Below the pieces are notes generated by a model. That model saw nothing but the letters and a program-made list of their open reading frames with translations. It had not been told where the DNA came from and searched no databases. Below are positions 5,919 through 23,156 of a stretch of 23,156 bases of DNA, piece by piece (the stretch's first letter is position 1; each line of letters begins with the position of its first letter). The translations under genes were made by a program, and so were the position numbers. Source of the DNA: a virus; IMG/VR virus record IMGVR_UViG_3300028553_000176, positions 1-23,156 of that record. One strand, written 5' to 3'.

Positions 5919-6216
5919 TCCTTTATTCAAACCTCCGCGCCACCTTGTAAAAGAATGGCCGGAGATTTTTGAAGATCTTTACATGAACACCATGCCTGTG
6001 GCCTATCTAGATTCGGTGAGATTAGATTTCACAGATGGTCGGATATGGGAAATTAATGTTCAGGAACAGCTCTCTGACGCTGCTCCGGATGAGATAGCCG
6101 AAAAGCTTCTTGGTATTTTCCAGGAATATCGCAAAGACATTAAAAAGATAGACTTTCAAATGGATATTGAACGACTGAAAAACGATATCCAGGAAAGCTC
6201 TAAAAATCTTCTTTGA
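5911..6216 (+). CDS. Conserved phage protein, unknown function
   Basis: A 101-residue protein; start ATG at 5911 inside the end of the preceding gene (a TTG at 5908 directly precedes it and is not needed). The N-terminus is MPNPLFKPPRHLVKEWPEIF and the C-terminal half is charged and helical. It is the last plus-strand gene. Its final six codons overlap the end of the opposing minus-strand gene by 17 bases. It belongs to the same conserved block as the preceding genes. Confidence 0.78.
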   Translation: MPNPLFKPPRHLVKEWPEIFEDLYMNTMPVAYLDSVRLDFTDGRIWEINVQEQLSDAAPDEIAEKLLGIFQEYRKDIKKIDFQMDIERLKNDIQESSKNLL

Positions 6217-7408
6217 AATACAGTTCCGTAGATCTAATAACATTATCAAACATCATCTTTTTAAAATTTAGTTTTTTATAATTTTGAAAGTTGTGTTGGA
6301 TAATGTTATTCCATTTATAGATGGCAGTTCTTCTTATTTCAGGATCTTGCACACACCAATTTCTTAGAGATTGATGAAACTGTAAAAATCGTTCCCGATC
6401 ATCCTCAACAAGATCATAGCTTTGGTCTATACCGTCAAAGTCAGTTTGAAATCCCCAACTCCGTAGTTTTTCTAAAGTGCCTTTTTGACCTAGAATCATA
6501 AAAGGATGACCTACTAGCAAAGGCCTAAAAGTTTTTTCTGTAATAAACAATCCGCCAGTTTGATTGAAATGACTTTCGGTTACCACTGTTAGTTGACTGT
6601 TTTCATATATTTCAAGATTATTAATTAAGTTTGGAACTTGATTAACTAGGTCTTGTACATCCACAGTCCTAGGATAGTTGGTCTTTAATACTGTATGGTA
6701 ATGATTATATTCTACTGTTTGATATATAGGATATTCTATTTCGTGCGTATCAAACCAAGCACCGCCACTTACCAATCCTTGCAATTTGTTTTCAGCTAGA
6801 AAATATAAATGTTCTGTCCTATGATTTCTATGAGCACGATTTAGGCTGTTAACAGGTAATCCGTAATCTTTTATGACTACAGGATGGGCCGGGTGTATGC
6901 TGTTATTAGAAGTTTTACCATCCCATTCTACGCCTTCTTGAAATTCAATGTATTCTTCTTTAGATTGTTGCTTGCACCATTCTGTATATTGTTGACTGGC
7001 ATTTAAATTTCCAGAAACAATAACTACAGAGTGTTTAGGCAGTCCTAACAGACGAACAGTATTGTGTAGGTGCTCAAATCCGTTAAAGTCTTTTGAAGCA
7101 AAATTATCTCCTTCAACTACTGACAATATTACTATACGAAGTTTTTTAAGTTTAGCAGCCTTAATTACCTTGCCTGGTATGTTAAGCAGTAAGTTAAAAC
7201 TTTCAGGTTTGGTTTTTGCACACCAAAGACTCGGAATTTTACTAACTTCCGCAATGTATAATCCCGGCTGTGTATATTCCGTTGATTGTGTAAATTCAAA
7301 ATTAGATTCACGCAACCTTTTTTTTAACTCAGTCAGCGACCGCACCTGTTTGATGTCTGTAAGGTGCGACAAATTAACTTCAGTGTCACTGTCAAAATAA
7401 CAGAGCAT
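6200..7408 (-). CDS. Putative glycosyltransferase with C-terminal TEKT(F/Y)(K/R)P motif
   Basis: A 402-residue protein, last gene of the minus-strand cluster. Its C-terminal part carries VVTESHF (275-281), ITEKTFRPLLVGHPF (289-303) and a GF..DFDGIDQSYDL segment followed by a helical DDRERF stretch. The same motif set occurs in two other proteins of this cluster (8665-9846 and 10794-12086). An EK pair followed by a Pro-rich turn before a beta strand is reminiscent of nucleotide-sugar binding in GT-B transferases such as family 10, so a glycosyltransferase role is plausible, not proven. The start forms TAATG with the preceding stop. The N-terminal 200 residues are not recognisable. Confidence 0.65.
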   Translation of the reverse strand: MLCYFDSDTEVNLSHLTDIKQVRSLTELKKRLRESNFEFTQSTEYTQPGLYIAEVSKIPSLWCAKTKPESFNLLLNIPGKVIKAAKLKKLRIVILSVVEGDNFASKDFNGFEHLHNTVRLLGLPKHSVVIVSGNLNASQQYTEWCKQQSKEEYIEFQEGVEWDGKTSNNSIHPAHPVVIKDYGLPVNSLNRAHRNHRTEHLYFLAENKLQGLVSGGAWFDTHEIEYPIYQTVEYNHYHTVLKTNYPRTVDVQDLVNQVPNLINNLEIYENSQLTVVTESHFNQTGGLFITEKTFRPLLVGHPFMILGQKGTLEKLRSWGFQTDFDGIDQSYDLVEDDRERFLQFHQSLRNWCVQDPEIRRTAIYKWNNIIQHNFQNYKKLNFKKMMFDNVIRSTELYFKEDF

Positions 7409-7992
7409 TAGAGACCCCTTGCTAGGATAACTCCATTATTTCCTGTATAAACTATTTTATAACCGTTGCACAACAAATAAGGAACTACAGCACCACACTT
7501 ACCGGTGTATGTTTCAGATCCAGCAACTAACGGAGTGTCATCGCAGATCACCAGTGATTGGTCAGCCATATAAGGCACACAGTTTATCATCTGGGCTAGA
7601 TGTTCTACTTGACTACCCATATTAGACCAATCGACATTTCTAAATGCATAACTTGTCCTAATAGTGTCTGCATTTGGGCCAGGATTAGCCCAATCATAAT
7701 TATCAAGATAAAGAACTTTGATCTGTTTGTTTAAAGTAGGCAACACTTTCTTAGTCCACACACTACCTGTTTCAACTTGCCATATAATATGATCTAGGTG
7801 GGTAAATCTATGCTGCGGCTCAATGATAACATCCACGGTATAAAAGGGTATTTCCCAGTTAACTGATAAGCCGTTAAAAAATTCGGTAGATCCTTCATTT
7901 TGATCACTGCCTATTTCTAAAATCATGTCAGTAGCTTGATTGTAAGACAGTTGTTCAATGTAAGGTTGACTGTTAAGGTGAAAGTTTGCCAT
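7408..7992 (-). CDS. SAM-dependent methyltransferase-like protein (class I fold)
   Basis: A 194-residue protein with the outline of a class I methyltransferase: a motif I-like loop, LEIGSDQNEGST (25-36); an acidic end of the second strand, FYTVDV (50-55); LYLDNYDW (94-101); and SLVICDDTP (146-154), where an Asp pair would lie near the active site. The last strand pair is KIVYTGNNGVILARG. This resembles O-methyltransferases that accept sugars or small molecules, but the substrate cannot be read. It is joined by TAATG overlaps to genes on both sides. In this setting it may methylate a sugar or glycan; that is inference. Confidence 0.6.
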   Translation of the reverse strand: MANFHLNSQPYIEQLSYNQATDMILEIGSDQNEGSTEFFNGLSVNWEIPFYTVDVIIEPQHRFTHLDHIIWQVETGSVWTKKVLPTLNKQIKVLYLDNYDWANPGPNADTIRTSYAFRNVDWSNMGSQVEHLAQMINCVPYMADQSLVICDDTPLVAGSETYTGKCGAVVPYLLCNGYKIVYTGNNGVILARGL

Positions 7993-8696
7993 TATACAAA
8001 TTGACTGCGGTGAGGTGGTGTTTCATGCGTAGCATTGCTACCATAATAAAACTGGATAAAGTTTTGTCTAGCGATGTGATCGGGGCAGGCTAGCGGATGG
8101 GGGTGGCCGTGAATTAGTCGTTCATCGTAATTCCAGATGGCTAGTCTGTTGGGCTTTGGGGCAATTTTCACTAGGCATTCAGTTCGATCAAAGTCCCAAA
8201 ACTCTAGTTCACCTCCCCAACTAGCATCCCATTCAGAATTCATATACAGTATCAAATTGGCACGACGAGTAAGCCTTAGCTGTTCATTCCAATTAAAGTC
8301 GTTATGTAGGCCTAGACTATCTCCACGGGATACACGAGTTATACCGCCTCCGCGATAGTGAGGATCAGCTACTAGCTTTTCAATTCCAGTAAGCTGTTCG
8401 ATCCATTTGAGAAATTGTCCTCCCTGAAAGCTGTAGGCCATTGACTGTATTCTAGGAGTGCTGGTAAAATTTCTGCACTCTTTTCTATAACTTGTGCCAT
8501 TGCTAAACACTGTCCAATCGTTTTCCTGTAAGAAATCAACTTCAAAACTTAAGGTATTAAACAATTCATCGGGTAGAAAATTGTCTATAATCGTATAAGG
8601 AACTGGAGACCGATTGGCATGACTCACTGCTAATTCGGCAGGATCATAGTGCTGATTCAATTCATTAAAGAATTTGTATATTTGACTGTGGCTCAA
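7992..8696 (-). CDS. 2-oxoglutarate/Fe(II)-dependent oxygenase (prolyl hydroxylase-like)
   Basis: A 234-residue protein with a full 2OG-Fe(II) dioxygenase signature: iron ligands H131 and D133 in GLHNDFN, distal His H196 in LIHGHPHPL, and R210 (ARQNFIQFYY) to bind 2-oxoglutarate. The N-terminal YTIIDNFLPDELF (34-46) is typical of the prolyl-4-hydroxylase-like group. Such enzymes hydroxylate protein side chains, sugars or small molecules. The best available start is TTG at 8696 with AAGAG upstream; no in-frame ATG occurs in the first 80 residues, so the N-terminus is uncertain. It lies between two sugar-transfer-type genes, so hydroxylation of a fibre side chain or a sugar is a reasonable guess. 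Confidence 0.85.
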   Translation of the reverse strand: MSHSQIYKFFNELNQHYDPAELAVSHANRSPVPYTIIDNFLPDELFNTLSFEVDFLQENDWTVFSNGTSYRKECRNFTSTPRIQSMAYSFQGGQFLKWIEQLTGIEKLVADPHYRGGGITRVSRGDSLGLHNDFNWNEQLRLTRRANLILYMNSEWDASWGGELEFWDFDRTECLVKIAPKPNRLAIWNYDERLIHGHPHPLACPDHIARQNFIQFYYGSNATHETPPHRSQFV

Positions 8697-9846
8697 AATA
8701 ATCTCTTAGAAAATTAAACTTTTCGTTGTACTGCAAATTGTCTTTTTTAGACAACAACTTTTGTTGATTTCTAACTGCTATAGAATGACAATTTTCTACT
8801 AGATTAGTATATTCATCTGCAGATAGATTTGTAATTCGTTCTATTTCGTCAACAATCATATTTAATCGTTTGTGGTTGTCTATTTCTAGATCGTAGCTTT
8901 CATTGATATAAGGGCTAAATGTTTCAAAACCTAGTTGGCGCACATCTTCTAGAAAATACGGTGTAGAAAACGCAATAAATGGTCTGCAACAGGCAATAGG
9001 CTTGTTGGTTTTTTCCGTAATACTACTAGGTGCTAGACTGCGCTTATAAACTTTATCTGGACTAGGAACATAGTAGAATAGATCGTAGTGTGTTTCAATT
9101 AATAAATGAAAATCTGCAGACAGCACACAGTTATAAGTAGCGTCATTCCATTTGTTCATTACATTATCTTCTGGGTCTTCTAGTGTATAGGGAATCTTAG
9201 ATATCCATGCTGTTACTGTATCGTTGACTTCAAAACTGTTGTTGGCTAGATCAGCCAGCATAGTTTCTTGACTAAAATGTTTTACTTCTCCGTAGGGGAA
9301 AATATTGTAGAACGAATATTTGAAATCTTTTAATATATCGCGTTTAGCAAGCTCTGCATATACTTGCAATCTCCATGCACGATAGTTTCTACTTAATGCA
9401 CTAAATTTTTTTTCAGTGACAAAGTTTCCTGTAGGAACATGGGTCTTTCCCAATAGGTCATTGTAAACACCCACAGTCACTCCCTCTATTGCTAATTCTC
9501 TAAATCTATCATTGAGGAATCGTCTATGCACTTCGTCCATTACTATTAGATAGATTTTTTCAGCAGGAATATGCTTTTGATCTATTATGTTTTTAATATC
9601 ATATGCTAGTGTATGTGTAAAAGTTTCATTACAGTTTTCATAAAGAAACTTTGCAGTAGAATCTGTGCGCAGATGGTCCCATTGAGCTACATCTAAAGAA
9701 TCTAAAATTTTGATTCCTTGATGAAGGTCATAATAGGCATGAAAATAATAGATAGTATCTGACTCAGATTTCCAACTAGTCAATGGTGCAAATTTATCCA
9801 GCTGTACTTTTAGATCATACAGTCGTCCTGTTTTACTGTAAATCAT
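8665..9846 (-). CDS. Putative glycosyltransferase with C-terminal TEKT motif (paralogue)
   Basis: A 393-residue protein sharing two motif regions with the 430-residue gene at 10794-12086: a central FSALSRNYRAWRLQVYAEL (148-166) and a C-terminal ETHYDLFYY...SITEKTNKPIACCRPF (276-290) with the GF.TF...NESYDLE box. The latter is also in the 402-residue gene at 6200. The central L.R..R..RL pattern plus the EK motif is what I associate with GT-B-like transferases in marine phage surface clusters, but no activity is proven. The start overlaps the epimerase stop by 14 bases, and its end overlaps the oxygenase start by 32 bases. Confidence 0.65.
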   Translation of the reverse strand: MIYSKTGRLYDLKVQLDKFAPLTSWKSESDTIYYFHAYYDLHQGIKILDSLDVAQWDHLRTDSTAKFLYENCNETFTHTLAYDIKNIIDQKHIPAEKIYLIVMDEVHRRFLNDRFRELAIEGVTVGVYNDLLGKTHVPTGNFVTEKKFSALSRNYRAWRLQVYAELAKRDILKDFKYSFYNIFPYGEVKHFSQETMLADLANNSFEVNDTVTAWISKIPYTLEDPEDNVMNKWNDATYNCVLSADFHLLIETHYDLFYYVPSPDKVYKRSLAPSSITEKTNKPIACCRPFIAFSTPYFLEDVRQLGFETFSPYINESYDLEIDNHKRLNMIVDEIERITNLSADEYTNLVENCHSIAVRNQQKLLSKKDNLQYNEKFNFLRDYFEPQSNIQIL

Positions 9847-10804
9847 CTACTTGTCCTTTGATCCATTTATAGGTATGCTCTAATCCGTATTCCAAGTTCT
9901 CATCGGGACGCCATCCTAGTAATTCTTCAATAAGAGCGTTATGACTTGTTCTGCCCATTACACCTACAGGGCCGTCAACATTACGAATTGATAATTCTTT
10001 TTCGGCAATGTTGGCAATCAATAGAGCAAGATCATTTATGCTGATCATACGCTCACTGCCAAGATTAACAGGCTGCGTGATATCGCTGGCCATAATCATT
10101 TGCAGACCTTTTAGACATTCTTCAATGTACAAGAAACTGCGAGTCTGTGTACCAGGTCCCCAAATTTCAACTGTACCTGCTTCGGGACAGCTTGCAACTT
10201 TACGGCAAAGTGCTGCTGGTGCTTTTTCTTTTCCGTCATTCCAGGATCCCTGTGGGCCAAAGACATTGTGTAGTCGAACTACCTTTGCGTCAATGCCGTA
10301 GTTTTTCCTGTGTGCAAAATAGAGTCTTTCGCTGAATAGTTTTTCCCAACCATACTCAGTATCTGGTTGTGCAGGATATGCAGTAGATTCTTCGCAGTTA
10401 GGATTATCAGGATCTTCTTGGTTACGCTCTGGGTAAACACAGGCGCTGCTGGTATAAAGAATTTTTGGAATTTGTTTTTTAGTTGCTTCGTACAATACAT
10501 TGAGATTGATCAGTGCAGAATTATGCATAATATCTGCATCGTGTTCTCCAGTGCCAATATATCCTGTGCCGCCCATATCTGCTGCCAGTTGATAAATTTC
10601 ATCAAGGTCAGCAGTGACTAATTGATCTACCAATTGCGGATTTCGTAAATCGTAAAGATAAAATTCATCAGCATCAGTCTCAGCATACAAGGGCTGTTTT
10701 ATATCAGCGGCCACAATATAGTGTCCTTGTTTCTTTAATTCTTTAACTAAATGATAGCCTATAAAGCCGCCTGCGCCGCATACTAGTATTTTTTTATGTT
10801 CCAT
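9833..10804 (-). CDS. GDP-mannose 3,5-epimerase homologue (SDR superfamily)
   Basis: A 323-residue extended short-chain dehydrogenase with the NAD-binding GAGGFIG (10-16). Segment by segment it matches GDP-mannose 3,5-epimerase, which turns GDP-D-mannose into GDP-L-galactose or GDP-L-gulose: LAADMGGTGYI (73-83), SSACVYPE (119-126), YGWEK (151-155), EKAPAALCRK (193-202), TQTRSFLYIEEC (219-230), PVNLGSERMIS and GVMGRTSHN. Residues matching the plant enzyme's catalytic set are C122, Y151, K155, K194 and R285, all present. Length is normal for the core enzyme. The epimerase is joined by short overlaps to putative glycosyltransferases on both sides, suggesting its product is used locally. Another SDR sugar epimerase is the alternative, but the combined motifs favour this one. 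Confidence 0.88.
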   Translation of the reverse strand: MEHKKILVCGAGGFIGYHLVKELKKQGHYIVAADIKQPLYAETDADEFYLYDLRNPQLVDQLVTADLDEIYQLAADMGGTGYIGTGEHDADIMHNSALINLNVLYEATKKQIPKILYTSSACVYPERNQEDPDNPNCEESTAYPAQPDTEYGWEKLFSERLYFAHRKNYGIDAKVVRLHNVFGPQGSWNDGKEKAPAALCRKVASCPEAGTVEIWGPGTQTRSFLYIEECLKGLQMIMASDITQPVNLGSERMISINDLALLIANIAEKELSIRNVDGPVGVMGRTSHNALIEELLGWRPDENLEYGLEHTYKWIKGQVDDLQ

Positions 10805-12086
10805 ATTTTTCTACCAAGTTATCTATTTCCGTGTCCTGCATTGTATTTAAATGGGCTACATTATAGTCGACTATATCTTTCACTGCATAGGTAAACTGTA
10901 TCCTTACTTCATCCGACCACGTTGATATTTCTTCTATAATACCCATAATCATCTTGAAGCGTTGTTTATCGTCTTTTTCTAGATCATAGCTTTCATCCCA
11001 AAATTCGCCAAAAGTTTTAAAGCCCATATCTTTGATATGCTGTAAACTACCAGCAGCACCTAGCAGTATAAAAGGCTGCATAAATGCAATAGGCTTATAG
11101 GTCTTTTCTGTAATGTGAATAATGTTGTTAAAGAAATACGTCTCAGTAACGATATTGACCAGCGAATTGTCATATAAGTGTTTCACTGGATCAACACTGT
11201 GTTCCATAGGATATCTACTAAAATTTGGATTGTCCAACACCAAAGGCAGTAATTTATCGGCTGCTAATACATCAGTGCTGTCTAATCCCATATCAGAGAA
11301 TCTACTTATTAGGTATTTGCAATTTTCAACGAAAGACCTATTGGCTTCTGGCTGTGTTTTATCCATACTGTAATAACACTGATCAATCAATCCACGCTGT
11401 ACCATTGCCAAATATAACATTAATCTATGATTATTATATCGTCTATTGAAACATAGGAAAGTTTTCTTTCGAGGACCCGGTTGATATTTTGTAATTATAG
11501 ATTCACGTATTGCTTGACCTATGTTACATTTGTCTATTCTAAATACAGGAAAATATTCCATTCGCATCTCTGGCAACTTGTGATTACGTTTACAATAATC
11601 TTCGTATACTTCCTTGCCGTTGTAGCAATTGGTCAGGTAAATTACCTGTGTTAGTGGTAATCCTTTAGATATAAAATAATCTGATAGATGGTTCAAAAAT
11701 TCATCATCCAGATATCCTTCATAGAACAGTGTCACTAAAAAGTAAGCTGTCTTATTTTTCACTCTGTTTAAAACTTTGGAATCAATTTGATTGTCATCAA
11801 ACAATCCGTCTGCACTGTGAAAATTATGAAACTTGTCTCTATAATGAAAATCATTCCAATTTAGTTCATATAGGAATATTTCTTGAGGAAGTTTGTAAGT
11901 AGACACTATCCTAGAGGCTACTATTCTAGAATGAAAGTGTGGTTTTTGAAATAGGTCGCCTTTCAGTTGAGGGAAATGATAATCAACCGATGCAGTCATA
12001 AGATCAACAACAGTGGGTATCCTATTATTAGTCAATGGTCCATTAGGACCAATCCATTCGTAGGCTAGATTTATTTTTTTACTCAT
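10794..12086 (-). CDS. Putative glycosyltransferase with TEKT motif
   Basis: A 430-residue protein. The central part has KKTFLCFNRRYNNHRLMLY (207-225), a motif that I associate with phage and bacterial GT-B-like transferases. The C-terminal part has VNIVTETYFF (310-319), ITEKTYKPIAFMQPFILLG (325-343) and GFKTFGEFWDESYDLE. It aligns along much of its length with the 393-residue gene at 8665. The N-terminal region is rich in aromatic residues and Asp but shows no DXD of a GT-A enzyme. It overlaps the radical SAM gene by 8 bases and the epimerase by 11. The sugar donor might be made by the neighbouring epimerase. Confidence 0.68.
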   Translation of the reverse strand: MSKKINLAYEWIGPNGPLTNNRIPTVVDLMTASVDYHFPQLKGDLFQKPHFHSRIVASRIVSTYKLPQEIFLYELNWNDFHYRDKFHNFHSADGLFDDNQIDSKVLNRVKNKTAYFLVTLFYEGYLDDEFLNHLSDYFISKGLPLTQVIYLTNCYNGKEVYEDYCKRNHKLPEMRMEYFPVFRIDKCNIGQAIRESIITKYQPGPRKKTFLCFNRRYNNHRLMLYLAMVQRGLIDQCYYSMDKTQPEANRSFVENCKYLISRFSDMGLDSTDVLAADKLLPLVLDNPNFSRYPMEHSVDPVKHLYDNSLVNIVTETYFFNNIIHITEKTYKPIAFMQPFILLGAAGSLQHIKDMGFKTFGEFWDESYDLEKDDKQRFKMIMGIIEEISTWSDEVRIQFTYAVKDIVDYNVAHLNTMQDTEIDNLVEKYGT

Positions 12087-13443
12087 CTTTGCATCTATTG
12101 TAAAATTCTATCATCTCAGGAAAAGTTGCTGAAAAATCTGTGCCGCGTCTGCGGTCATATTCTGTAAACCAATTATAAAAATCTTTGCGGCCTTCTTTTA
12201 GTTTATCGTCTGTATATACTGTAGTTTCCATATAATCAACCACACGCCTAAACTTTTCATATTCAAGATTAGAAAAACATTGTATATCGTTATCGTCGGT
12301 ATGTGATTTTATAAATTCTAAATGCCTGTACATATAAGGCATAAATTCATCCTTAGGTAATATATTCATATCATACTGTAACGGTTCTTTTAGATAGGGA
12401 GTGTCAAATTTAATTCTCTGTTCATCTGAATTAGTTAGGTTATATCGATTTCGCCATTGCAACATTTTTTCTAAAAGCGATTGAAAGTTAGGAACCGTTA
12501 ATATATTAAATGTAATCATAAAAGTAATGGGCAATGATGTATTTTGCATATAGGTGTCAAAATTCTTTTCCCATAATTCTAAATCTAAACCTGTTCGAAT
12601 ATACTCGGCAGGTGAGTCCCAAGTATCCATACTGGTAAAAATTTTAAATTTTTTAATCTTTTTTCCTATTACTAAATTATTTGCTTTCTCTACTAAACGT
12701 TCTATTAGAATAGGTTTAACTCCAAAATTACTGTTGATGTTGAGTTCTAAATTGGGTAATGGGTTTATTTCTAGATCATCTAAAAGACGCCATGTGCTTT
12801 GTTGCAGTAGAGGTTCGCCGCCGGTGATGCGTAGAATCGTCAAGGTCTTACGAACTTCGGGCCACCAACGCCACCATGCTTCTACATAAGGATTAGTTTC
12901 TTCCTCATGAATTTTAAACCAATCAATATCATTACGATGATTTTTCACCATAGTGTACGGGCCATGATCTTTGATCTCTTTGTAATAACTGCTGCTGTGT
13001 TTGGGATGACAATATCCGCATTTAAAATTGCATTCGTTACCAAATGATATTTCTATATACTGCGGATTAATCATCTGATCCCAGTCACCGTTTTTTATCT
13101 GTGCAAAACGCTGATCTGTATAGATTGTGGCATTTCTTTCTTTTCTATCTGATATGTAATCGTCTCCTAGCTTTTCTATATTCCAGCAATAATCGCAGCC
13201 CTTGGGCTTACCGCCATTCAGCATTTCGAGACGCTCAAGTTTTTTTTCTGTGGTATTATGTAATGCACTGGGATCAATCTGAATTTCTTGTAAGGGTATT
13301 TTATGAGGGGCAGGATGATAACAACTGTGTGTTTCACCTGTTTGTAGATAGATAGTAGTATGATGCCATTTGGCCATACAGAATGTAGGACTAATTTCAT
13401 TCATTATCGGTATAAATGTTTTAATCTTTTCTACATCGTTCAT
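12079..13443 (-). CDS. Twitch-domain radical SAM protein
   Basis: A 454-residue radical SAM enzyme. The cluster motif is CX3CX2C: C138, C142 and C145 in ECNFKCGYCHP, followed by the SAM-binding ITGGEP (206-211). Upstream, C22 (TFCMAKWHH), C41 (SCYHP) and C83-X2-C86 (GCDYCW) form a possible second cluster site, as in SPASM/twitch proteins that modify peptides or sugars. The reaction cannot be deduced. It sits between a glycosyltransferase-like gene and the repeat-bearing GT protein and overlaps both. Known twitch and SPASM enzymes often act on peptide side chains, so modification of a fibre protein is one idea, and sugar radical chemistry another. Confidence 0.85.
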   Translation of the reverse strand: MNDVEKIKTFIPIMNEISPTFCMAKWHHTTIYLQTGETHSCYHPAPHKIPLQEIQIDPSALHNTTEKKLERLEMLNGGKPKGCDYCWNIEKLGDDYISDRKERNATIYTDQRFAQIKNGDWDQMINPQYIEISFGNECNFKCGYCHPKHSSSYYKEIKDHGPYTMVKNHRNDIDWFKIHEEETNPYVEAWWRWWPEVRKTLTILRITGGEPLLQQSTWRLLDDLEINPLPNLELNINSNFGVKPILIERLVEKANNLVIGKKIKKFKIFTSMDTWDSPAEYIRTGLDLELWEKNFDTYMQNTSLPITFMITFNILTVPNFQSLLEKMLQWRNRYNLTNSDEQRIKFDTPYLKEPLQYDMNILPKDEFMPYMYRHLEFIKSHTDDNDIQCFSNLEYEKFRRVVDYMETTVYTDDKLKEGRKDFYNWFTEYDRRRGTDFSATFPEMIEFYNRCKDE

Positions 13444-15415
13444 TGAACTGCTCCTCTAACCAAGTAAAGTCATTTATCATTTTTAGTGCTTCTAGATTAT
13501 TTTTATTTTCTGATCCGTAGTCTCTTCCAGCCCTAGCACCATTTATTGCATATTCTCCATACTGCTTATCTATTCCAATATTGCACCATGTATCTAAACG
13601 TAGTTTAGTTTCTTCTTCGAATTGTCGTTCAATTACTCGACTGGCTAGTTTACAACATTCTCTAAACGCTGATCTCCATGTAGCAAATGCGTCAGTGTTA
13701 AATGCATTAATATTGGATACCGCATCCATAGCTTTGAATTTTTTAGATATGCCAGTTGTCATATCTGATGTATTGGTATTCATATCTAGTGTTAGTTGCC
13801 TTGGTAATAATTTGACTCCGCCGTTACCATATTCTAAATTATTAATAGGGTTAAGGCTTCGCCAAACATGAACGCAGTCTATGTCATAACTTGACATGAC
13901 TAGATTAAAATTGAAATCCTTTTCAATAACGGCATCACCGTCAATTATCCACATCATATCTGTATCACATAATTTTGCTGCGGTAATATGGGCTTGGTGA
14001 ATACCTTTTATGCCATGCACACGTTTTGCCCTTGGGCAGACATCTAATAATTTGTTATAGTTTTCATCAGCATTAGGCTCATTGTAAGATATAAAAACAA
14101 CATCGTACACATGATGTTTAGATCCTAGCCGAAGGTGTTCTTTTTTTTCAATTAAAAATCGATGTTGAAATTCTCGTTGTCCTATAATTTTATATTTAGA
14201 TAATAATACTAGCCCGTTGGTATATATTTCTTCGCCGTTGAACAGATGCTTAAATGTGTGATTTTCTTTTCTGTCATGATCATACTTGCCATCATTAGGA
14301 TCAAAATATAGATCAAATACAGATTCATCTATGATATCTATCTCAGGCCATATACCCCAAAACATCGACTGTGTTTCATTCTTTAAAACGTCTAGGTAAT
14401 TATCATATGATGAAAGAATGTAGCTGTTATATCTATATCTACTCACAACTTTGCTATGTTCTTTTTTATCAATCAAGTATTTTCTATCAAATTCTTTTTT
14501 GGATATAATTTTCGATTTAGAAAATAATACAACACCACTTAGGTAAGATTCTGTGTCATTGCACATATTTTTAAATACATGATTTTCTGTACGATCATAA
14601 TCTAAAGATCCATCATTTGGATCGAAATATAAATCAACAATTGTGTTATCAATAATTTCTGTATTTGGCCACTGAAACCAAAACATCTGTTGTTTTTCAG
14701 TGTTAACAATATTTAGATACTCGTCATAAGATTTAATTTTATAGAGAGGATATTGATATTTGCTAGCAACCACATCATGTTCTTTTTTGTCAATAGCATA
14801 TTGTTTATCAAACTCACGATTTGATAATGGTTTATACTTACTACAAAGAATCACGCCACTGAAATACGAAGCTGTATCATTACACACATTTTTGAATACA
14901 TGATTTTCTCTGCGATCGTAACTGTTATGATGACTAAAATACAATTCAAAAATAGAATCATTTATAATCGTAACCTCTGGCCAAACTACCCAAAACATAT
15001 CGTCTGTAATTTCTTGATATTCTTTAAATGTAGAAGGATGATATTTGTTATATTGTTTCGGTTTACTAGCAACAATGTCTATTTCTTTTTTGTCTGTAAA
15101 AAATCTATTATAAAATTCTCTTTGAGAAATAGTTAATGATTTAGGAAATAAGCACACTCCGTCATAGTGTTCACCGTTTTTAAAAACATGAACATACATG
15201 TCATCCCATTTAGTGGCTTTGTAATCTAGCAAATTAAATAATGTTAGATTTACATCGTCCCAGATGACCCAGAACATTTTTGTTAAAGATTTAGATTGTA
15301 TTTCTTTGTATGATTTTATGTTTGTGAGACGTTGAGCAAGAGGATACCTAGACTTTATTGTTTTCCAGTCCTTGTCATTACCGTTGCTTGCTGAAACATA
15401 AAAAATATCATACAT
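13421..15415 (-). CDS. GT-A glycosyltransferase-like protein with four degenerate tandem modules
   Basis: A 664-residue protein. Residues about 437-640 are an intact GT-A-like domain: YDVVFISYNEPNAD, RVHGIKGIHQAHITAAKL, the DXD-like metal motif D492-G-D494, YGNGGVKLLPRQL, ATWRSAFRECCKL and YAINGARAG. Ahead of it are four tandem modules starting at MFW47, MFW140, MFW244 and MFW351, each of about 93-107 residues. They share MFW..WPE..IID, DR.ENH.FK, a G(V/L).L.SK strand and a KKEH end. These modules line up with the start of the GT domain (MFW..WPE against MMWIIDGD; VHVFK...GVCLFPKSLT against VHVW...GGVKLLPRQLT) but lack the DXD, so they look like inactive GT copies. It overlaps the radical SAM gene by 23 bases. 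Confidence 0.75.
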   Translation of the reverse strand: MYDIFYVSASNGNDKDWKTIKSRYPLAQRLTNIKSYKEIQSKSLTKMFWVIWDDVNLTLFNLLDYKATKWDDMYVHVFKNGEHYDGVCLFPKSLTISQREFYNRFFTDKKEIDIVASKPKQYNKYHPSTFKEYQEITDDMFWVVWPEVTIINDSIFELYFSHHNSYDRRENHVFKNVCNDTASYFSGVILCSKYKPLSNREFDKQYAIDKKEHDVVASKYQYPLYKIKSYDEYLNIVNTEKQQMFWFQWPNTEIIDNTIVDLYFDPNDGSLDYDRTENHVFKNMCNDTESYLSGVVLFSKSKIISKKEFDRKYLIDKKEHSKVVSRYRYNSYILSSYDNYLDVLKNETQSMFWGIWPEIDIIDESVFDLYFDPNDGKYDHDRKENHTFKHLFNGEEIYTNGLVLLSKYKIIGQREFQHRFLIEKKEHLRLGSKHHVYDVVFISYNEPNADENYNKLLDVCPRAKRVHGIKGIHQAHITAAKLCDTDMMWIIDGDAVIEKDFNFNLVMSSYDIDCVHVWRSLNPINNLEYGNGGVKLLPRQLTLDMNTNTSDMTTGISKKFKAMDAVSNINAFNTDAFATWRSAFRECCKLASRVIERQFEEETKLRLDTWCNIGIDKQYGEYAINGARAGRDYGSENKNNLEALKMINDFTWLEEQFNERCRKD
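14120..15277 (-). repeat. Four tandem protein-level modules inside the GT-like gene
   Basis: Approximate module limits, in transcription order, are 15277-14999, 14998-14687, 14686-14366 and 14365-14120. The last three are most alike (shared WP..IIDE/N, LYFDPNDG, ENH.FK). The first is the most diverged (WDD in place of WPE). Each keeps the Trp-rich strand and the DKKEH-type ending, which suggests duplication of one ancestral domain followed by divergence. Confidence 0.8.
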
Positions 15416-16325
15416 TCGTAGGTACCGGCATCTTAAAATAAGTATCGTTTAAGTTCATTGTTTCATTATACAGATCTAAAGTAAATTTACTTTGCTGTGC
15501 GTCAAGGAACGGCCAATCTAATCCTAGCCCGATTTTTATTTTTTCGCCTAAGTTTTTAATCTCATCTATGAGGCCGTCACCGTTTACATCTTCGTATGGC
15601 TTACCGTATTGAAAATATATTTCTCTAAGTATTTCAAAATCTCTTACATCTACATAATTCCATTGAGTACAGTTGGCCATCCATGTTCCCAATCTAGCAC
15701 CGTAAACAGCGTAAACACCGTTTTGTTCATGGGCACCAACTGTTGACCACATCCGCAGTCTATGGATATTATGCCACCATACACGCTGTGAGATTTCCAT
15801 AGGAGGAATTTTTACTCCGTCTAACAATGTCATTTTTACACCTTCACGGAATCCTGCCCGCCATGCCTGGAAGGGACTACCTGTGATAATACTTTCACTA
15901 AATGTTAACGGAAAATTTCTATATCCATCTTCCCAACAAAAATCCACCTGTCCGCGATCACTTGTGGAATTTTCATGCGTTCGCATGTTTATCACAAAAT
16001 CTTTACGCCAGATTTTTAATCCGCCATTACCGTAACGAAGGCCATTAATAACATTTCGACCGCACCAGCAATAGACCTGTGTTTTTGGATTGCTCATATC
16101 GATGTCTAGATTAAAAAATTTAGGATCTACAATATTATCAGCATCTACTGTGACAAACCAATCAGTTTCACTTAGTTCTGCTGCGGCTTTGTGTGCGTGA
16201 TCCGAACCTTTTACTCCGTGTACACGTTTGGCCCAAGGCACTTTATTACACAGATCAGCATAGTGGAGATCAGCATTAGGCTCATCATAACTTAAAAATA
16301 TCACATCAAATTCTATAATTTTCAT
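15408..16325 (-). CDS. GT-A family glycosyltransferase-like protein
   Basis: A 305-residue protein homologous to the C-terminal domain of the following 664-residue gene: FDVIFLSYDEPNADLHYADL (6-25), RVHGVKGSDHAHKAAAEL, a DXD motif D61-A-D63 (VTVDADNIVD), GLRYGNGGLKIWRKDF, QAWRAGFREGVKM and YAVYGARLGTW. The DXD would bind the metal and nucleotide sugar. Near the C-terminus, D246-V-N-G-D-G-L-I-D254 resembles an EF-hand or dockerin-type calcium loop. The start overlaps the preceding stop as ATGA; its end overlaps the next gene by 8 bases. Acceptor unknown; fibre or surface glycan is inferred from the neighbours. Confidence 0.82.
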   Translation of the reverse strand: MKIIEFDVIFLSYDEPNADLHYADLCNKVPWAKRVHGVKGSDHAHKAAAELSETDWFVTVDADNIVDPKFFNLDIDMSNPKTQVYCWCGRNVINGLRYGNGGLKIWRKDFVINMRTHENSTSDRGQVDFCWEDGYRNFPLTFSESIITGSPFQAWRAGFREGVKMTLLDGVKIPPMEISQRVWWHNIHRLRMWSTVGAHEQNGVYAVYGARLGTWMANCTQWNYVDVRDFEILREIYFQYGKPYEDVNGDGLIDEIKNLGEKIKIGLGLDWPFLDAQQSKFTLDLYNETMNLNDTYFKMPVPTNV

Positions 16326-16939
16326 TTATATTCTATCACGTAATTTTTAAATAATCTGCGTGTGTACACACTGAAGATGGTATGATTTAAATTTTTTATT
16401 ATTTTGTTTTTGCCAATTAGATTGTTAATCGTTATAGAAAACATTTGGTAAATTTCGTTAGGATCATTATAACCGGTAATTAAAAAATCCATAACTGTGT
16501 TTCCATCCCAAACAAAATTTCTCGGTTTTGGGTTTGTTTGATATTTTTTAGTACCGCCAAATTCTTGAGATAATTGTATTTTTAATGTTTTGGTTTTTGA
16601 AGTATATGTTAAGAATATATCTGGATGTGTTACATCAGTATACTCAGACGACACAATTCGATGCAACACATCGTCTAATTTTATCAGTGTTTTTATTTCA
16701 GCTATTTCTAATTTTCCTGAATTAATATCTATTAGACATTTTTCAATTTGTATTTCTGCTGAAATAATACTCTGTGCCAATTCACGATTTATTGGCACTT
16801 GATTAATCTGATCAGGAAATGCATAGTCAGGGCCTACACTTTGGACCTTACCAGTTAATGGGTCAAACACTGCGACATAGGTCACTTCTGGAGGTTTATA
16901 TTCGGCTAACCACTTATCAAAATCTTCTATTGTTTCCAT
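16322..16939 (-). CDS. Protein of unknown function in the glycosylation cluster
   Basis: A 205-residue protein. Near the N-terminus is a distinctive strand-rich segment, VTYVAVFDPLTGKVQSVGP (19-37), followed by a helical stretch with IISAEIQIEKC and a Lys/Asn-rich C-terminal half predicted as mixed beta. No catalytic motif, DXD or membrane segment. The 13-base overlap with the GT8-like gene upstream and the ATGA overlap with the GT-A gene downstream point to a shared transcript. Unknown; it could be a partner of the transferases or a small structural domain. Confidence 0.7.
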   Translation of the reverse strand: METIEDFDKWLAEYKPPEVTYVAVFDPLTGKVQSVGPDYAFPDQINQVPINRELAQSIISAEIQIEKCLIDINSGKLEIAEIKTLIKLDDVLHRIVSSEYTDVTHPDIFLTYTSKTKTLKIQLSQEFGGTKKYQTNPKPRNFVWDGNTVMDFLITGYNDPNEIYQMFSITINNLIGKNKIIKNLNHTIFSVYTRRLFKNYVIEYK

Positions 16940-17766
16940 GCTATTTCCTCTAAAATATGGATTAGCTCTCTGTCAATTTTATTTTTTTCTACATAGTGAA
17001 CTACATCAGTTTGTTGGTAATTGCCTATTTTCAATCGACCTTGTTTGTTGAGATAGAAACCAACATGGTCACTCCAGGTGTCTGCTGGCCACGGCCAGTT
17101 CTGCATAAGGGGTTTCATATGTACTACTCTTGGAAATTCTAAAGGATAAGCAATGTCATCTGTGATATCCAATATCTGTGCAGCTAGAGCAAATGCTTCG
17201 TCTGTGCCTATGATTTTTGGTTTATGGGCTGTGAGAAAAATATTTGCAAACTCTACAGGATATTGTATGATGCATCTACCAAGATCAAAAAAACTCTTGG
17301 CCATTGTTGTATCTTTACGAAAAAAGGTCCACATGGAATATAAATCAGGTAAATGATTTTCATCAAAAGTTTTTCTATAACTTCGATTAGTTGCTATTTC
17401 ACCTCTGTATGTGTAGGCCTTGTTGGCCACATATAAGTCACAGTTTTCAACGAAATAATCTATCCAATGACTGTAATCTCTAGTAAACAACATATCAACA
17501 TCTAAACAAACTGTGTGTTCGAATGGCGATAGCTGATCCATCCAAGATCTACCATTCCAGAATGTTTGCTCATCCCAAGCAATCACATGGTCGAAAACCC
17601 AAGGGCTTTTTAATTCTGTGATTTTTTCTACATCATCTATTACCAATGCTACTTTATCATATCCTGGTTTTTGTGTGTTTTTTATACTAAGTGCAAGACC
17701 ATAGGCTAATTGCAAATAGTCAACAGTGTCGCTGTTTGATACGATAAGCAAGTATCCAAAATTCAT
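16927..17766 (-). CDS. GT8-like glycosyltransferase
   Basis: A 279-residue GT-A-fold protein. It opens GYLLIVSNSDTVDYLQLAYG, typical of family 8-like transferases. The DXD metal site is D89-V-D91 in HTVCLDVDMLF. A later GTDEAFALA (187-195) matches the acidic acceptor-side motif, and VVHMKPLMQNW (214-224) supplies the His-x-Lys-Pro often seen in family 8, where the His is a third metal ligand. It shares general layout and the opening with its upstream neighbour at 17763-18623. Joined by an ATGA overlap to that gene. Donor and acceptor unknown. Confidence 0.8.
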   Translation of the reverse strand: MNFGYLLIVSNSDTVDYLQLAYGLALSIKNTQKPGYDKVALVIDDVEKITELKSPWVFDHVIAWDEQTFWNGRSWMDQLSPFEHTVCLDVDMLFTRDYSHWIDYFVENCDLYVANKAYTYRGEIATNRSYRKTFDENHLPDLYSMWTFFRKDTTMAKSFFDLGRCIIQYPVEFANIFLTAHKPKIIGTDEAFALAAQILDITDDIAYPLEFPRVVHMKPLMQNWPWPADTWSDHVGFYLNKQGRLKIGNYQQTDVVHYVEKNKIDRELIHILEEIAWKQ

Positions 17767-18623
17767 ATCATCTCCAACAACTGTTGTTGATTTCTAATAA
17801 TGCTTTGCTTGTTCATTACATGAATATCAACCTCGGATATTGATGCAGCACAGTAATTATTATCCAACTTATGATCTATAAGAAATAGCAAACGCTGATC
17901 ATTAACATTATACAAAATATCTCTGTCGAGTGCAGATAAAATAGGTGGTAATGTTCCTATACCAGATTCAGTATATCCATCTAATATATGTTTGCTCACA
18001 CTAAAAGCAATGTCATTTCGAAATTGTCGATGATCGAATCTAAATACATCAGCATAGTGTCTATAGTTTTCCTTGACATGGTTTACTGTGTCAAAAAACA
18101 ATCGTGTATTTTGATTTTTAGTGAACATAACTGTAGTGGCCCAATATAATTTTACACCAGTGTCAGAAATGTGTCTATCAAGATATTTCATTCTATCTTG
18201 ACTGTTGATATCATTTATAGATTCACCGATCAATAAATCGCAGTCTGTGTGCCAATACTTGTTGAGAACATCGGAAAATATTAAAAAGTCACTGTCTATT
18301 AATAGAGTTCTATCATAGGGTGTGAGACTCCAGGCAGTGTCTCGATTTACATTTATAAATGGCACTGTGCCGATGGCTTCGCCGTCGTGGAGTCGTCTCT
18401 GATTTTCGGTTATGGGTCTGTCAACCGTAATAATATTTTCAAAAACTGTATTAGCAACATCAAATATCTGTGACTGTTTCATCCATGATACAGTAGAGTC
18501 GTCAGTGACCAACGAGGCTGACACAGCCAAATGTTTTTTAGCTAGGCCTGCGCTGATAACAGCCAATAGTGCATAATCAACTGCGCGAGTGTTATGAGCG
18601 TAGATTAATATACCCTGTGTCAT
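17763..18623 (-). CDS. GT8-like glycosyltransferase
   Basis: A 286-residue GT-A-like protein with ILIYAHNTRAVDYALLAVIS at the N-terminus, a DXD metal site D110-S-D112 in TLLIDSDFLIF, FRNDIAFSVS (the acceptor-side motif) and EVDIHVMNKQSI, whose His may be the third metal ligand. It has the same order of motifs as the next gene, so the two probably arose by duplication. ATGA overlaps at both ends place it in one translationally coupled unit. Acceptor unknown. Confidence 0.78.
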   Translation of the reverse strand: MTQGILIYAHNTRAVDYALLAVISAGLAKKHLAVSASLVTDDSTVSWMKQSQIFDVANTVFENIITVDRPITENQRRLHDGEAIGTVPFINVNRDTAWSLTPYDRTLLIDSDFLIFSDVLNKYWHTDCDLLIGESINDINSQDRMKYLDRHISDTGVKLYWATTVMFTKNQNTRLFFDTVNHVKENYRHYADVFRFDHRQFRNDIAFSVSKHILDGYTESGIGTLPPILSALDRDILYNVNDQRLLFLIDHKLDNNYCAASISEVDIHVMNKQSIIRNQQQLLEMI

Positions 18624-18970
18624 GTATCTAATAATTTTTCTACAGATCTACTTTTTTTGATATTTTGATAATGTTCAAAGTATTCGTTGGTAACTTGAAA
18701 GTATCTATCAAATATCTGATCACGAAACACTGTGAGGTCGTCTATGAGTATAGGATTTTGATTGATATCCAATAAAACCACTGCGTGTGTTCTACCTTTG
18801 GTAATTAATATTTCTACAAAAGTCAATAGATCCCTATCTATGCGAAAAATGCCTCCATTAATGCCATAAGTGAGTTTGGCTTCTGAACGTTCTTTGAGAG
18901 TTTTTTTCTGTATGGAAAAAGTCTGCTGGTAATTAGCAAAATCCAAAACTTTGGCAAATTTCTCTTGCAT
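18620..18970 (-). CDS. Small conserved phage protein, unknown function
   Basis: A 116-residue protein, first gene of the glycosylation cluster, with AGGAG about 5 bases ahead of its ATG. Segments KVLDFANYQQTFSIQKKTLK, AKLTYGINGGIFRID and the C-terminal KKSRSVEKLLDT resemble a conserved hypothetical of T4-like marine phages that I recall only by sequence pattern. Its beginning touches the perfect inverted repeat at 18979-19004, whose right arm runs into the ribosome binding site, so its translation or transcription may be controlled there. Confidence 0.75.
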   Translation of the reverse strand: MQEKFAKVLDFANYQQTFSIQKKTLKERSEAKLTYGINGGIFRIDRDLLTFVEILITKGRTHAVVLLDINQNPILIDDLTVFRDQIFDRYFQVTNEYFEHYQNIKKSRSVEKLLDT

Positions 18971-19028: not shown

Positions 19029-20030
19029 TTAAGAACCAGTCACAGCACCGACAGTCACAGTAGGATTGGTGACTGTGAATACTGCACTGCTAGGAACCAT
19101 TATACCTGTGGCGAACAGCAAAGAGACTGATACTGTTAGTGTGCCATCCACTGAATCACCCGGGGGGAACATGGAGGCTGTTGCTGTATTCGGAGAGCCA
19201 CTAGGTAATGGCGCGATTCCCGGATCTACGTACCCATCGGTGAACACCACACGAATTTCTCCAGACGCTGCTGTACCAGAACTGTTGCTGGCAACATCAA
19301 CACATCTGGCCTGTATCTGATAATTGTTAGAACCATAAGGACTACTGGCTGTGGCTGTGTAAAAAGTTTGAAAAGTGCTATTTGTTCTATACCAATTTGT
19401 ACCATCGTTGGGCGTGGTTCCGGCATTCGGAACTGCACCGCCAAAATTCTGTGTGCCTGCTGTACTCAATAAAGATGTCCAACTAGTGTTTTGAGTTGTG
19501 CCAGATCCTCCTGATCTAGCTGCGCTGATTCTAATCTTACCGCCACTATTAAACCAATATCTAGCTTGATTGCTGTCAGCCCAATTAAACTGTATAGTAC
19601 AAGTACATTGAGAGATCCACGCTGTGGTTCTTGATGCTGAAACAGCAGTGGTTGTAGCGCTTTCTCCTGCTGCTATTCCAAATCTGTTAGTGGTGATATT
19701 ATTTGCCCAGACATCATATTGATTTTGAGGCACATCCAGTGTACCAGTGTCGGGAGTAAATGCTGCTGTGTATCTGATTGTGTTACCTTCTGCTACCTGT
19801 GCTGTGGTGGGGTTTGAACCATTAATATGTTTGTAGGCATTAATTACATCATATCGAAGGTTCGCCCATTCGTTGATAGTAATTCTAGTACCTTCTGCTA
19901 CGGCAGAACTGTTGATTCGTGCCTGTTGGCCCCATCCGAAATTACCAGACCCGTTACCTAAAACGGTAACCATCTTGTTTCTGATATCGTTGTAATCTGC
20001 TTGAAGTATTTTGCTATTGACAGCTGGCAT
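19029..20030 (-). CDS. Virion structural protein, paralogue of the preceding gene
   Basis: A 333-residue Thr/Ser/Asn/Gly-rich protein, beta-rich as in virion surface proteins. It is a diverged duplicate of the 296-residue gene upstream, sharing ILQADYNDIRNKM/ILAAQYVTIQDKA, the EWANLRYDVINAYKHIN/QWDLIKFDIINIKLHQD segment, QARYWFNSGGKIRIS against QARYFFNSGGKVRFT, SSPYGSNNYQIQAR against SSPYSANNYRLEAR, and GYVDPG against SYVDPG. Similar proteins occur beside fibres in T4-like marine phages and are considered structural. No signal peptide. A 16-base gap separates it from the upstream stop and no clear ribosome binding site is visible. Confidence 0.75.
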   Translation of the reverse strand: MPAVNSKILQADYNDIRNKMVTVLGNGSGNFGWGQQARINSSAVAEGTRITINEWANLRYDVINAYKHINGSNPTTAQVAEGNTIRYTAAFTPDTGTLDVPQNQYDVWANNITTNRFGIAAGESATTTAVSASRTTAWISQCTCTIQFNWADSNQARYWFNSGGKIRISAARSGGSGTTQNTSWTSLLSTAGTQNFGGAVPNAGTTPNDGTNWYRTNSTFQTFYTATASSPYGSNNYQIQARCVDVASNSSGTAASGEIRVVFTDGYVDPGIAPLPSGSPNTATASMFPPGDSVDGTLTVSVSLLFATGIMVPSSAVFTVTNPTVTVGAVTGS

Positions 20031-20046
20031 AGGAATATTTACTTAA

Positions 20047-20937
20047 TTAACTGGCAGAGATAGCAGAAAGTGAATACGAAGGACTAGTTATTGCAAAGGT
20101 GCCGCTGGGCTGTAAGAGTCCTGAAGCTTTGAGTTCTGATGCAGCTATGGTTAATGTTCCGTTGACAAGATCTCCGGGCGCTGGTGCGCCGGGATCAACA
20201 TAGCTGTCACTGAGAGTCACACGTAAAAACAGTTGTGTTGCAGTGCCTGTAGAGTTATCGGATACATTGGTACGTGCTTCTAGACGATAATTATTAGCGG
20301 AATACGGACTGCTTAACGAACTTTGATAATAGATTTGAAAACTGTTGGTAAGAGTATAATAATTAACAATGCCTGTATCGGCTCCAAACGATTGTGTACC
20401 CACACTGGCTAGAAGATTTACCCATGCATTTATCTGTGCAGTAGACGAACCTCCACTTAGGCTGGTTGTAAATCGTACCTTGCCGCCACTGTTGAAAAAA
20501 TATCTTGCTTGGTCAGCTGTGGAGAATGTACAGGTCAGAGTGGCAGTTAACGATGTAGACCAGGGAGTAGTGCGGGTTTGACTAGCTGTTGAATTTACTA
20601 CCGACTGACTACCAGCTATTTGGAATCGATTGGCTATGGCCTGTTCCAATATGGTATTGTAATTTGTGTTAGGAGCAGATGCGCCAAAGTTGATAGGATC
20701 TCCTACGTTTACAGTAACTACTCCCGGTAATACTCCGTCTTGATGCAATTTGATATTAATTATATCAAATTTTATCAAATCCCATTGAGCCTTGGTGATG
20801 GTATTCCCAGTAAACACATCTGAACTCTGTACCGTCTGACCGTATCCTCTGGTAACTGATCCTGTACCGATCAAGGATTGGGCTTTGTCCTGTATGGTCA
20901 CATACTGTGCTGCAAGGATATTAGTCCCTTGAGTCAT
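20047..20937 (-). CDS. Virion structural protein (tail-fibre associated)
   Basis: A 296-residue beta-rich, Ser/Thr/Asn-rich protein starting in a TAATG overlap with the tail fibre stop. Recognisable blocks are ILAAQYVTIQDKAQSLIG, ARYFFNSGGKVRFTTSLSGG, SSPYSANNYRLEAR and DSYVDPGAPAPGDLVNGTL. It is paralogous to the next gene. The location directly after the fibre, in the same late unit, argues for a fibre tip, collar or other virion part. It carries no Cys in the central sheet region except C136, so the CTCT seen in its paralogue is not shared. Confidence 0.75.
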   Translation of the reverse strand: MTQGTNILAAQYVTIQDKAQSLIGTGSVTRGYGQTVQSSDVFTGNTITKAQWDLIKFDIINIKLHQDGVLPGVVTVNVGDPINFGASAPNTNYNTILEQAIANRFQIAGSQSVVNSTASQTRTTPWSTSLTATLTCTFSTADQARYFFNSGGKVRFTTSLSGGSSTAQINAWVNLLASVGTQSFGADTGIVNYYTLTNSFQIYYQSSLSSPYSANNYRLEARTNVSDNSTGTATQLFLRVTLSDSYVDPGAPAPGDLVNGTLTIAASELKASGLLQPSGTFAITSPSYSLSAISAS

Positions 20938-22771: not shown

Positions 22772-23128
22772 CTATATTATCCTTGCAGCAGCGGCCTGTC
22801 TCTGCTGCTCAAGTTGTAGATATTCTGCGTCAGTGAGACTGGTAGCAACATTCAGAGCTTTTTGTCTGATATGGCGCATGATTTTCCAATCGGTGGAGTT
22901 CAAAAACTCACGCTCTAGACCGTTAGTTCTCTCCTGTTCTCGCTGATTTATCACAGTTTGATCCACAGCCACCACAGTTCCGGAAGCCACATCGAATCGG
23001 TGTGTCTGCGCCATTATCTGTGCGTGTTGACTATCTGAGATAGTAACCACAGACACTGTGCTGGGCACTGCAGGTTCATAGCTCTGTATAGCTGTGATCT
23101 GATTGTTTTCTATACATACATAGTGCAT
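22772..23128 (-). CDS. Tail fibre assembly / tail chaperone-like protein
   Basis: A 118-residue protein. I chose the ATG at 23128, with GGAG about 6 bases upstream, over an in-frame TTG four codons earlier. The N-terminal half is a small beta domain (MHYVCIENNQITAI). The C-terminal helix pair, FLNSTDWKIMRHIRQKALNV and SLTDAEYLQLEQQRQAAAAR, carries the DW...R...L..A.Y..L..QRQ.....I pattern of phage tail fibre assembly proteins, which help fibres fold and trimerise. The next gene is the fibre itself. The extra residues and the exact partner are inferred from position. Confidence 0.78.
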   Translation of the reverse strand: MHYVCIENNQITAIQSYEPAVPSTVSVVTISDSQHAQIMAQTHRFDVASGTVVAVDQTVINQREQERTNGLEREFLNSTDWKIMRHIRQKALNVATSLTDAEYLQLEQQRQAAAARII

Positions 23129-23156
23129 GATTAACTCCAAATTACCAAATAGTTAG

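Follow-up and report, generated by a model that had tools for sequence, protein, structure and literature searches.

The 23-kb linear virus fragment from IMG/VR analyzed here over its full 23,156 nucleotides (record IMGVR_UViG_3300028553_000176; the window) derives from an uncultured freshwater T4-like giant phage and carries a minus-strand run of 13 genes, from position 18970 down to 6200: u116, gt8a, gt8b, u205, gtA1, gtA2, rSAM, tektC, gme, tektB, oxy, mt, and tektA. Comparison with related viral contigs shows that these 12.8 kb are not one unit, as an earlier note on the sequence had assumed, but two modules of different evolutionary behavior: a fixed core, from u116 to rSAM, and an exchangeable cassette (6200–12086), which fills the variable interval from rSAM to the convergent p102 gene. 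Within the core, gtA2 encodes a glycosyltransferase preceded by an array of partial, catalytically dead copies of its own catalytic domain. Judging from the predicted proteins, we hold with moderate confidence that the two modules form a cytoplasmic glycosylation island in the late tail-fiber region, acting on tail proteins of the virion.

The 13 open reading frames were confirmed at their stated positions, with overlaps of 1–32 nucleotides at each of the 12 internal junctions. Genes for a tail-fiber assembly protein, a Peptidase_G2-type fiber, and two paralogous virion-like proteins (parA and parB, 36.5% identical) lie 5′ of the run, and a convergent plus-strand block with QueE and RNase H–type exonuclease genes faces it. 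The earlier description of the run and its fiber-side genes was accurate. Gene maps of viral contigs revealed that the order fiber–parA–(parB)–u116–gt8a–gt8b–u205–gtA1–gtA2–rSAM is constant in relatives, parB being missing from a sister lineage. Because about 130 loci, counting some overlapping or redundant contigs, show this order, the core arrangement is not due to chance. Of 47 distinct loci whose 5′ flank is long enough to tell, 46 have fiber or paralogue genes 5′ of the core; the structural block that precedes the core in relatives comprises a baseplate wedge gene, a gene for a 4,733-residue virion protein, and an array of 3–4 fiber paralogues, the last of which corresponds to the window's fiber. 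The proposed coupling of a phage-encoded glycosylation cluster to late tail-fiber genes is thus borne out for the core, and a marine group described below has a gtA2 homologue behind a giant fiber gene.

Fiber identity correlates with the identity of the backbone gene p216 (Mantel rho 0.83) and with that of core genes (0.54–0.80). With p216 controlled, partial Mantel coefficients with parA were 0.62 for u205, 0.55 for gt8b, 0.51 for gtA1, and 0.50 for u116. Divergence of the core genes thus follows that of parA more closely than the backbone accounts for.

The cassette behaves differently. Among the 34 distinct contigs having both cassette ends, 16 gene orders were found. TEKT transferases are present in 30 of the 34 cassettes, true GDP-mannose 3,5-epimerases (GMEs) or other short-chain dehydrogenase/reductase epimerases in 23, an oxygenase in 19, SGNH-like proteins in 16 (with weak Pfam support for family F4 only, F6 and F7 being assigned by motif), and UDP-glucose/GDP-mannose dehydrogenases and further radical S-adenosylmethionine (SAM) genes in 8 each; some cassettes consist almost entirely of radical SAM genes (F10–F11–F8). 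An in-frame fusion of the epimerase to tektB in five loci (L027:7485-9629, L034, L038, L059, and L075) suggests that the tektB-type transferase uses the product of the epimerase. Cassettes can also face the other way: in L173 and L175, the radical SAM cassette runs opposite to the core.

Cassette sharing is correlated with fiber identity at a Mantel rho of 0.33, with p216 identity at 0.11, and with parA, when p216 is controlled, at a partial Mantel value of 0.33. Cassette and fiber are largely uncoupled, with a weak link remaining that may stem in part from physical linkage. Individual comparisons illustrate both directions of this uncoupling. The window's cassette is also present in L006, L017, and L157 (similarity 0.92–1.0), with parA only 38–39% identical; conversely, the window has no cassette gene in common with L007 and L009, whose fibers are 90–91% identical to its own; the L007/L009 cassette reappears in L081, where parA is 42–44% identical. 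Between the window and L006, L017, and L157, cassette proteins are 74–94% identical compared to about 60% for p216, a sign of cassette transfer between lineages. Of the cluster, then, the core travels with fiber genes and the cassette tracks the fiber only weakly; the gtA1–gtA2–rSAM trio also occurs in a Bdellovibrionia contig without fibers.

The most distinctive core protein is gtA2. Tandem repeats of ~105 residues, numbering 0 to 14 per protein by hidden Markov model (HMM) search, precede its catalytic domain, and homologues in the same slot have lengths of roughly 225, 350, 465, 550, 660, 765, 870, and 972 residues, spaced about 105 residues apart. The HMM of the N-terminal repeats additionally picks up the part of the catalytic domain that surrounds the DxD site; a model derived solely from 413 repeats matches 132 of 132 catalytic domains (1e-14 to 5e-8), and the repeat and catalytic profiles match each other with a probability of 97.7% (E=1.8e-12), identifying the repeats as partial copies of the protein's own catalytic core. 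Although the catalytic domains of gtA1 and gtA2 are homologous (E=2e-32; hhalign 100%), the repeat profile does not match the gtA1 profile significantly; an origin from gtA1 was therefore rejected in favor of the gtA2 catalytic domain. The DxD motif is intact in every one of the 86 catalytic domains scored and in none of 367 scored repeats. In an AlphaFold2 model computed from an alignment of relatives, every repeat has the same strand–helix order. The predicted local distance difference test score (pLDDT) of that model is 89.2 and the predicted TM-score (pTM) 0.61, indicating confident local structure and a less certain relative placement of the domains.

Over a 14.9-kb stretch that begins inside gtA2, spans the cassette, and extends past it, contig L139 (3300028581_000349) is 99.2% identical to the window. 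Its gtA2 has one repeat more, as an in-register, in-frame tandem duplication of exactly 321 nucleotides; 1,166 nucleotides at the 5′ end and 1,156 at the 3′ end of the gene are identical. The two contigs diverge 5′ of gtA2 (gtA1 95%, u205 58%), which places a recombination point near the gtA1/gtA2 boundary. Assemblers can collapse exact repeats, and the window's gtA2 may have been shortened in this way from the longer L139 form. As an explanation for repeat variation as a whole, an assembly artifact is excluded by the 0–14 diverged repeats in 132 proteins. A tie between repeat number and cassette type was also rejected, since 0–5 repeats are found within one cassette type. Natural gtA2 variants include those of L017 with no repeat, L159 with one, and L139 with five, next to the window's four.

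The array probably serves as an arm for binding the acceptor, lengthened and shortened by unequal recombination. A bolder proposal, which we regard as tentative and rather doubtful, is that gtA2 represents a new kind of glycosyltransferase, in which an active GT-A domain is guided by expandable dead half-GT-A repeats that bind the acceptor, either a virion fiber or a growing glycan. Array length (0–14), altered by unequal recombination in steps of ~107 codons, would tune glycosylation, and cassette exchange would change the sugar, together yielding modular variation of tail glycans. The gtA2 array is a clean example of an enzyme that has extended itself with inactive duplicates of its catalytic core, and homologues with 0 to 14 repeats are available in nature for testing. 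A limited literature search found no published description of such an array.

Profile, residue, and structure-model evidence upholds the earlier calls for the radical SAM protein, the epimerase, the 2-oxoglutarate (2OG) oxygenase, and the GT-A and TEKT transferases. The rSAM protein matches NF033640 (N_Twi_rSAM) over positions 1–398, well above the curated cut-off of 170 bits; its cluster cysteines C138, C142, and C145 (CxxxCxxC) and N-terminal C22, C41, C83, and C86 are 100% conserved in 72 orthologues, and matches to it were found in 340 viral stretches. Foldseek matches of the gtA2 model include GT-A enzymes (chondroitin polymerase, SunS, and a PBCV-1 capsid transferase), and the protein is predicted to adopt the GT-A fold, its catalytic domain retaining DxD. 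The tektC model (AlphaFold2 from an alignment of relatives; pLDDT 85.0, pTM 0.84) matches the GT-B enzymes SenB, trehalose-phosphate synthase, and O-GlcNAc transferase GtfA at modest TM-scores of 0.3–0.5, consistent with a GT-B-fold transferase. Given their modest E-values and low whole-chain TM-scores, the matches of both models indicate fold, not function. The designation of gt8a and gt8b as GT8-like was upheld in part: their joint family profile matches glycogenin over the DxD half, and none of 22 family members matches Pfam GT8. The methyltransferase-like label of mt is weak, with MT24 matches in 3 of 11 family members (best E 0.008), and u116 and u205 are, as before, proteins of unknown function.

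For gme, the best PDB matches are Arabidopsis-type GME chains (1e-84 to 1e-87, the next family following at 1e-26). The SSAC and YxxxK motifs are kept and C122, K194, Y151, and K155 are conserved, so that closest match and catalytic residues both predict GDP-mannose 3,5-epimerase activity. The oxygenase matches PF13640 (2OG-Fe(II) oxygenase; E=4e-15) and the profiles of OGFOD1 (9e-13) and prolyl hydroxylases; its iron site, H131, D133, and H196 (HxD...H), and the 2OG-binding R210 are 100% conserved in 25 relatives. The earlier note had proposed, as one of two readings, that the cluster hydroxylates and glycosylates a virion protein, in analogy to collagen. Hydroxylase, epimerase, and TEKT genes are cassette-borne and absent or replaced in many close relatives, and because 15 of 34 cassettes lack an oxygenase, such a sequence of steps cannot be the general function; for the window's own cassette, glycosylation of a hydroxylated side chain is possible. 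A collagen-like fiber substrate was rejected, as runs of four or more G-x-y triplets are absent from the fiber, parA, and parB.

Based on these data, a simple model would suggest the following. The core, with two glycogenin-related GT8-like proteins, two GT-A enzymes, the N-twitch radical SAM protein, and two small proteins, is probably co-transcribed with the fiber and its paralogues and would initiate and extend a glycan on a cytoplasmic acceptor, most likely the fiber, parA, or parB, with the gtA2 repeats holding the acceptor. The cassette would supply variable decoration of this glycan: the epimerase may provide GDP-L-galactose or GDP-L-gulose as donor for a GT-B TEKT transferase, and the oxygenase and possible methyltransferase may modify the sugar or the acceptor. 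Swapping of cassettes between lineages at the fixed interval from the core to the convergent block would then create a new glycan on an unchanged fiber. The model draws support from the match of the GT8-like profile to glycogenin, an enzyme that glycosylates protein, and from the serine and threonine content of parA and parB, the highest among window proteins. Several observations weigh against a virion target. Serine/threonine richness is common in fibers generally, adjacency to fibers could be mere syntenic inheritance, and the trio in a fiber-less bacterium need not act on virions. Moreover, the T4-type late promoter TATAAATA does not occur on the window's minus strand, where the phage's own promoter may differ. 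If the target is the virion, widespread uncultured freshwater phages possess a set of several enzymes that together build an exchangeable glycan on the tail, with bearing on host recognition and phage–phage competition.

The main rival, which we consider somewhat unlikely, is that the island alters the host surface (lipopolysaccharide or capsule) during infection, for instance to block superinfection. This role has been proposed for GT8 and other transferases of pelagimyophage host recognition clusters (HRCs; PMC7029224), and the NDP-sugar epimerase, dehydrogenase, SGNH-like, and methyltransferase genes of the cassettes do resemble polysaccharide decoration genes. However, by hydropathy alone, neither the core nor 170 cassette proteins include a likely membrane protein, and hence no flippase, polymerase, or ligase; this separates the island from gtr-like O-antigen conversion, which would need a membrane flippase and a membrane transferase. 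Position 3′ of the fibers also suggests late expression, late for exclusion, and the co-divergence of the core with parA is not what a host-surface role would favor.

Peptides or proteins are often the substrates of N-twitch/SPASM-type radical SAM enzymes. The radical SAM protein and oxygenase may accordingly mature a peptide or virion protein, in the manner of ribosomally synthesized and post-translationally modified peptides, with the transferases capping the product and glycosylation being one step of a wider modification. The prolyl-hydroxylase type of the oxygenase, the cassettes that are nearly all radical SAM genes, and a 281-kb relative with nine N_Twi_rSAM proteins above the cut-off fit this scheme. 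We nevertheless regard it as improbable: no precursor peptide gene was seen, and the prevalence of TEKT transferases in the cassettes indicates that glycosyl transfer dominates. Glycosylation of modified phage DNA is far less probable still. It is known in phages, and a QueE homologue lies within the window, but no member of the thymidylate synthase/hydroxymethylase family was found in nine long relatives, including contigs of 281 and 195 kb; in addition, the oxygenase is prolyl-hydroxylase-like and the island sits among tail rather than replication genes.

In the collagen glycosylation system of lysyl hydroxylase LH3, a GT-A domain occurs together with a degenerate GT-like accessory domain and with 2OG-dependent hydroxylation. 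LH3 is a weak structural match to gtA2 (Foldseek, E=1e-3), yet the functions reside here in separate genes, many small repeats stand in place of the one accessory domain, and a collagen-like substrate is lacking. The chondroitin polymerase K4CP, the best PDB fold match for gtA2, similarly has two GT-A domains per chain; both are active in K4CP, in contrast to gtA2, where a single site is intact and the several partial copies are dead. For mycobacteriophage virion glycosylation, we know of no epimerase, hydroxylase, or radical SAM set. There, phage-encoded glycans are carried by virion proteins, the targets being, unlike those proposed here, capsid and tail tube (Freeman et al. 2023, as cited in PMC12619734).

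Islands of T4-like phages in which fiber genes are linked to transferase and radical SAM genes have been described before: the portions of PMC7029224 on the HRC of pelagimyophages and cyanomyophages describe GT8 and radical SAM genes in hypervariable tail-fiber islands. Together with the known occurrence of 12 radical SAM genes in one T4-like genome (PMC5332604), this tempers the earlier view that the combination is unusual. The present island shares the hallmarks of an HRC, with Gp23-type capsid protein in relatives, fibers, GT8-type and other transferases, and variable cassettes including radical SAM ones. It differs in its fixed core, only the distal cassette being variable, and in its distal flank, a convergent RNase H/QueE block instead of a neck gene; those portions of PMC7029224 do not mention a gtA2-like repeat array. 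With respect to the HRC site between VrlC and gp14, a giant structural protein is encoded 5′ of the fibers and RNase H/QueE form the other flank, and the gp14 search was matchless everywhere and hence uninformative. Moraphages likewise are large freshwater phages with several conserved glycosyltransferases (four core orthogroups), and neither radical SAM nor a fiber-linked cluster is mentioned in the parts of PMC12619734 searched. As far as found, the new features are the division of the island into a fixed core and an exchangeable cassette, the epimerase–TEKT fusion, the occurrence of the trio in both phages and a bacterium, and the array of dead repeats.

Members of the gtA2 family are encoded by at least 600 viral stretches. 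One marine T4-like group, whose gene names were read from sequence and not by HMM, has another gene order; here a gtA2 homologue with several repeats lies shortly 3′ of a gene for a tail fiber of more than 2,700 residues that ends in an S74-type chaperone motif, with tail sheath and tube genes 3′ of the homologue. In four of these loci (L231:3-12244, L198, L203, and L229), a GT-A-like protein of 194–197 residues is encoded between a fiber of more than 2,500 residues and the repeat-bearing gtA2 homologue. A 493-kb Bdellovibrionia contig with cellular neighbors has gtA1, gtA2 without repeats, and N_Twi_rSAM (434 bits) in the phage order and no fibers; the trio is therefore a unit found outside the setting of virion genes as well, and its presence in phages and a bacterial contig provides a lead to the function of N-twitch radical SAM enzymes. 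It is found at L251:9980-13144 of this contig and in L253, with two more radical SAM genes nearby. The nine N_Twi_rSAM proteins of the largest relative (G001, 281,658 bp) are encoded in two clusters, at ~144–152 kb and 230–258 kb.

Table 1. Features of the tail-fiber region and the 13-gene run, in minus-strand order.
Feature	Position	Strand	Support or remark
Tail fiber assembly (chaperone-like) protein	22772..23140	-	phrog_188 / phrog_8716
Tail fiber, Peptidase_G2-type C-terminal domain	20937..22739	-	PF11962; phrog_19602
parA, virion-like paralogue, Ser+Thr 25.7%	20047..20937	-	
parB, virion-like paralogue, Ser+Thr 23.7%	19029..20030	-	
u116, core protein	18620..18970	-	Position conserved in about 130 loci
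gt8a, GT8-like glycosyltransferase (DSD)	17763..18623	-	Glycogenin profile match E=4e-7; D110/D112 100%
gt8b, GT8-like glycosyltransferase (DVD)	16927..17766	-	D89/D91 99–100%
u205, core protein	16322..16939	-	Strongest co-divergence with parA of genes tested
gtA1, GT-A-type glycosyltransferase (DAD)	15408..16325	-	Homologous to gtA2 catalytic domain
gtA2, predicted GT-A glycosyltransferase, four N-terminal degenerate GT-A repeats	13421..15415	-	
gtA2 repeat array, residues 1–434, four ~105-residue repeats	14114..15415	-	DxD replaced: WDD, WPE, WPN, WPE
gtA2 catalytic GT-A domain, residues 435–664, DGD at 492–494	13424..14113	-	
rSAM, N-twitch radical SAM protein, last conserved-core gene	12079..13443	-	NF033640 310 bits; Cys conservation
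tektC, predicted GT-B-fold glycosyltransferase, start of exchangeable cassette	10794..12086	-	AlphaFold2 pLDDT 85; Foldseek
gme, GDP-mannose 3,5-epimerase homologue	9833..10804	-	
tektB, TEKT transferase	8665..9846	-	Fused to epimerase in five related loci
oxy, 2OG-Fe(II) oxygenase, prolyl-hydroxylase type	7992..8696	-	
mt, methyltransferase-like protein (weak assignment)	7408..7992	-	
tektA, TEKT transferase, cassette end adjoining convergent gene block	6200..7408	-	Homology to tektC E=1e-16

Among 50,697 cultured-phage records, no matches to rSAM, gtA1, tektC, parB, gt8b, or gtA2 were found, and oxy has relatives at 27–32% identity only; no GTDB genome carrying rSAM was found. Relatives, the longest of which is a 281-kb contig, encode a Gp23-type capsid protein; its counterparts in large T4-like phages, among them Sinorhizobium phage Phosso, Vibrio phage 2.275, and PA5oct, share up to 76% identity with it. 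In the convergent block, a QueE-like radical SAM gene (785–1651, plus strand) adjoins the RNase H block, with modification of tRNA or DNA by 7-deazaguanine as possible roles.

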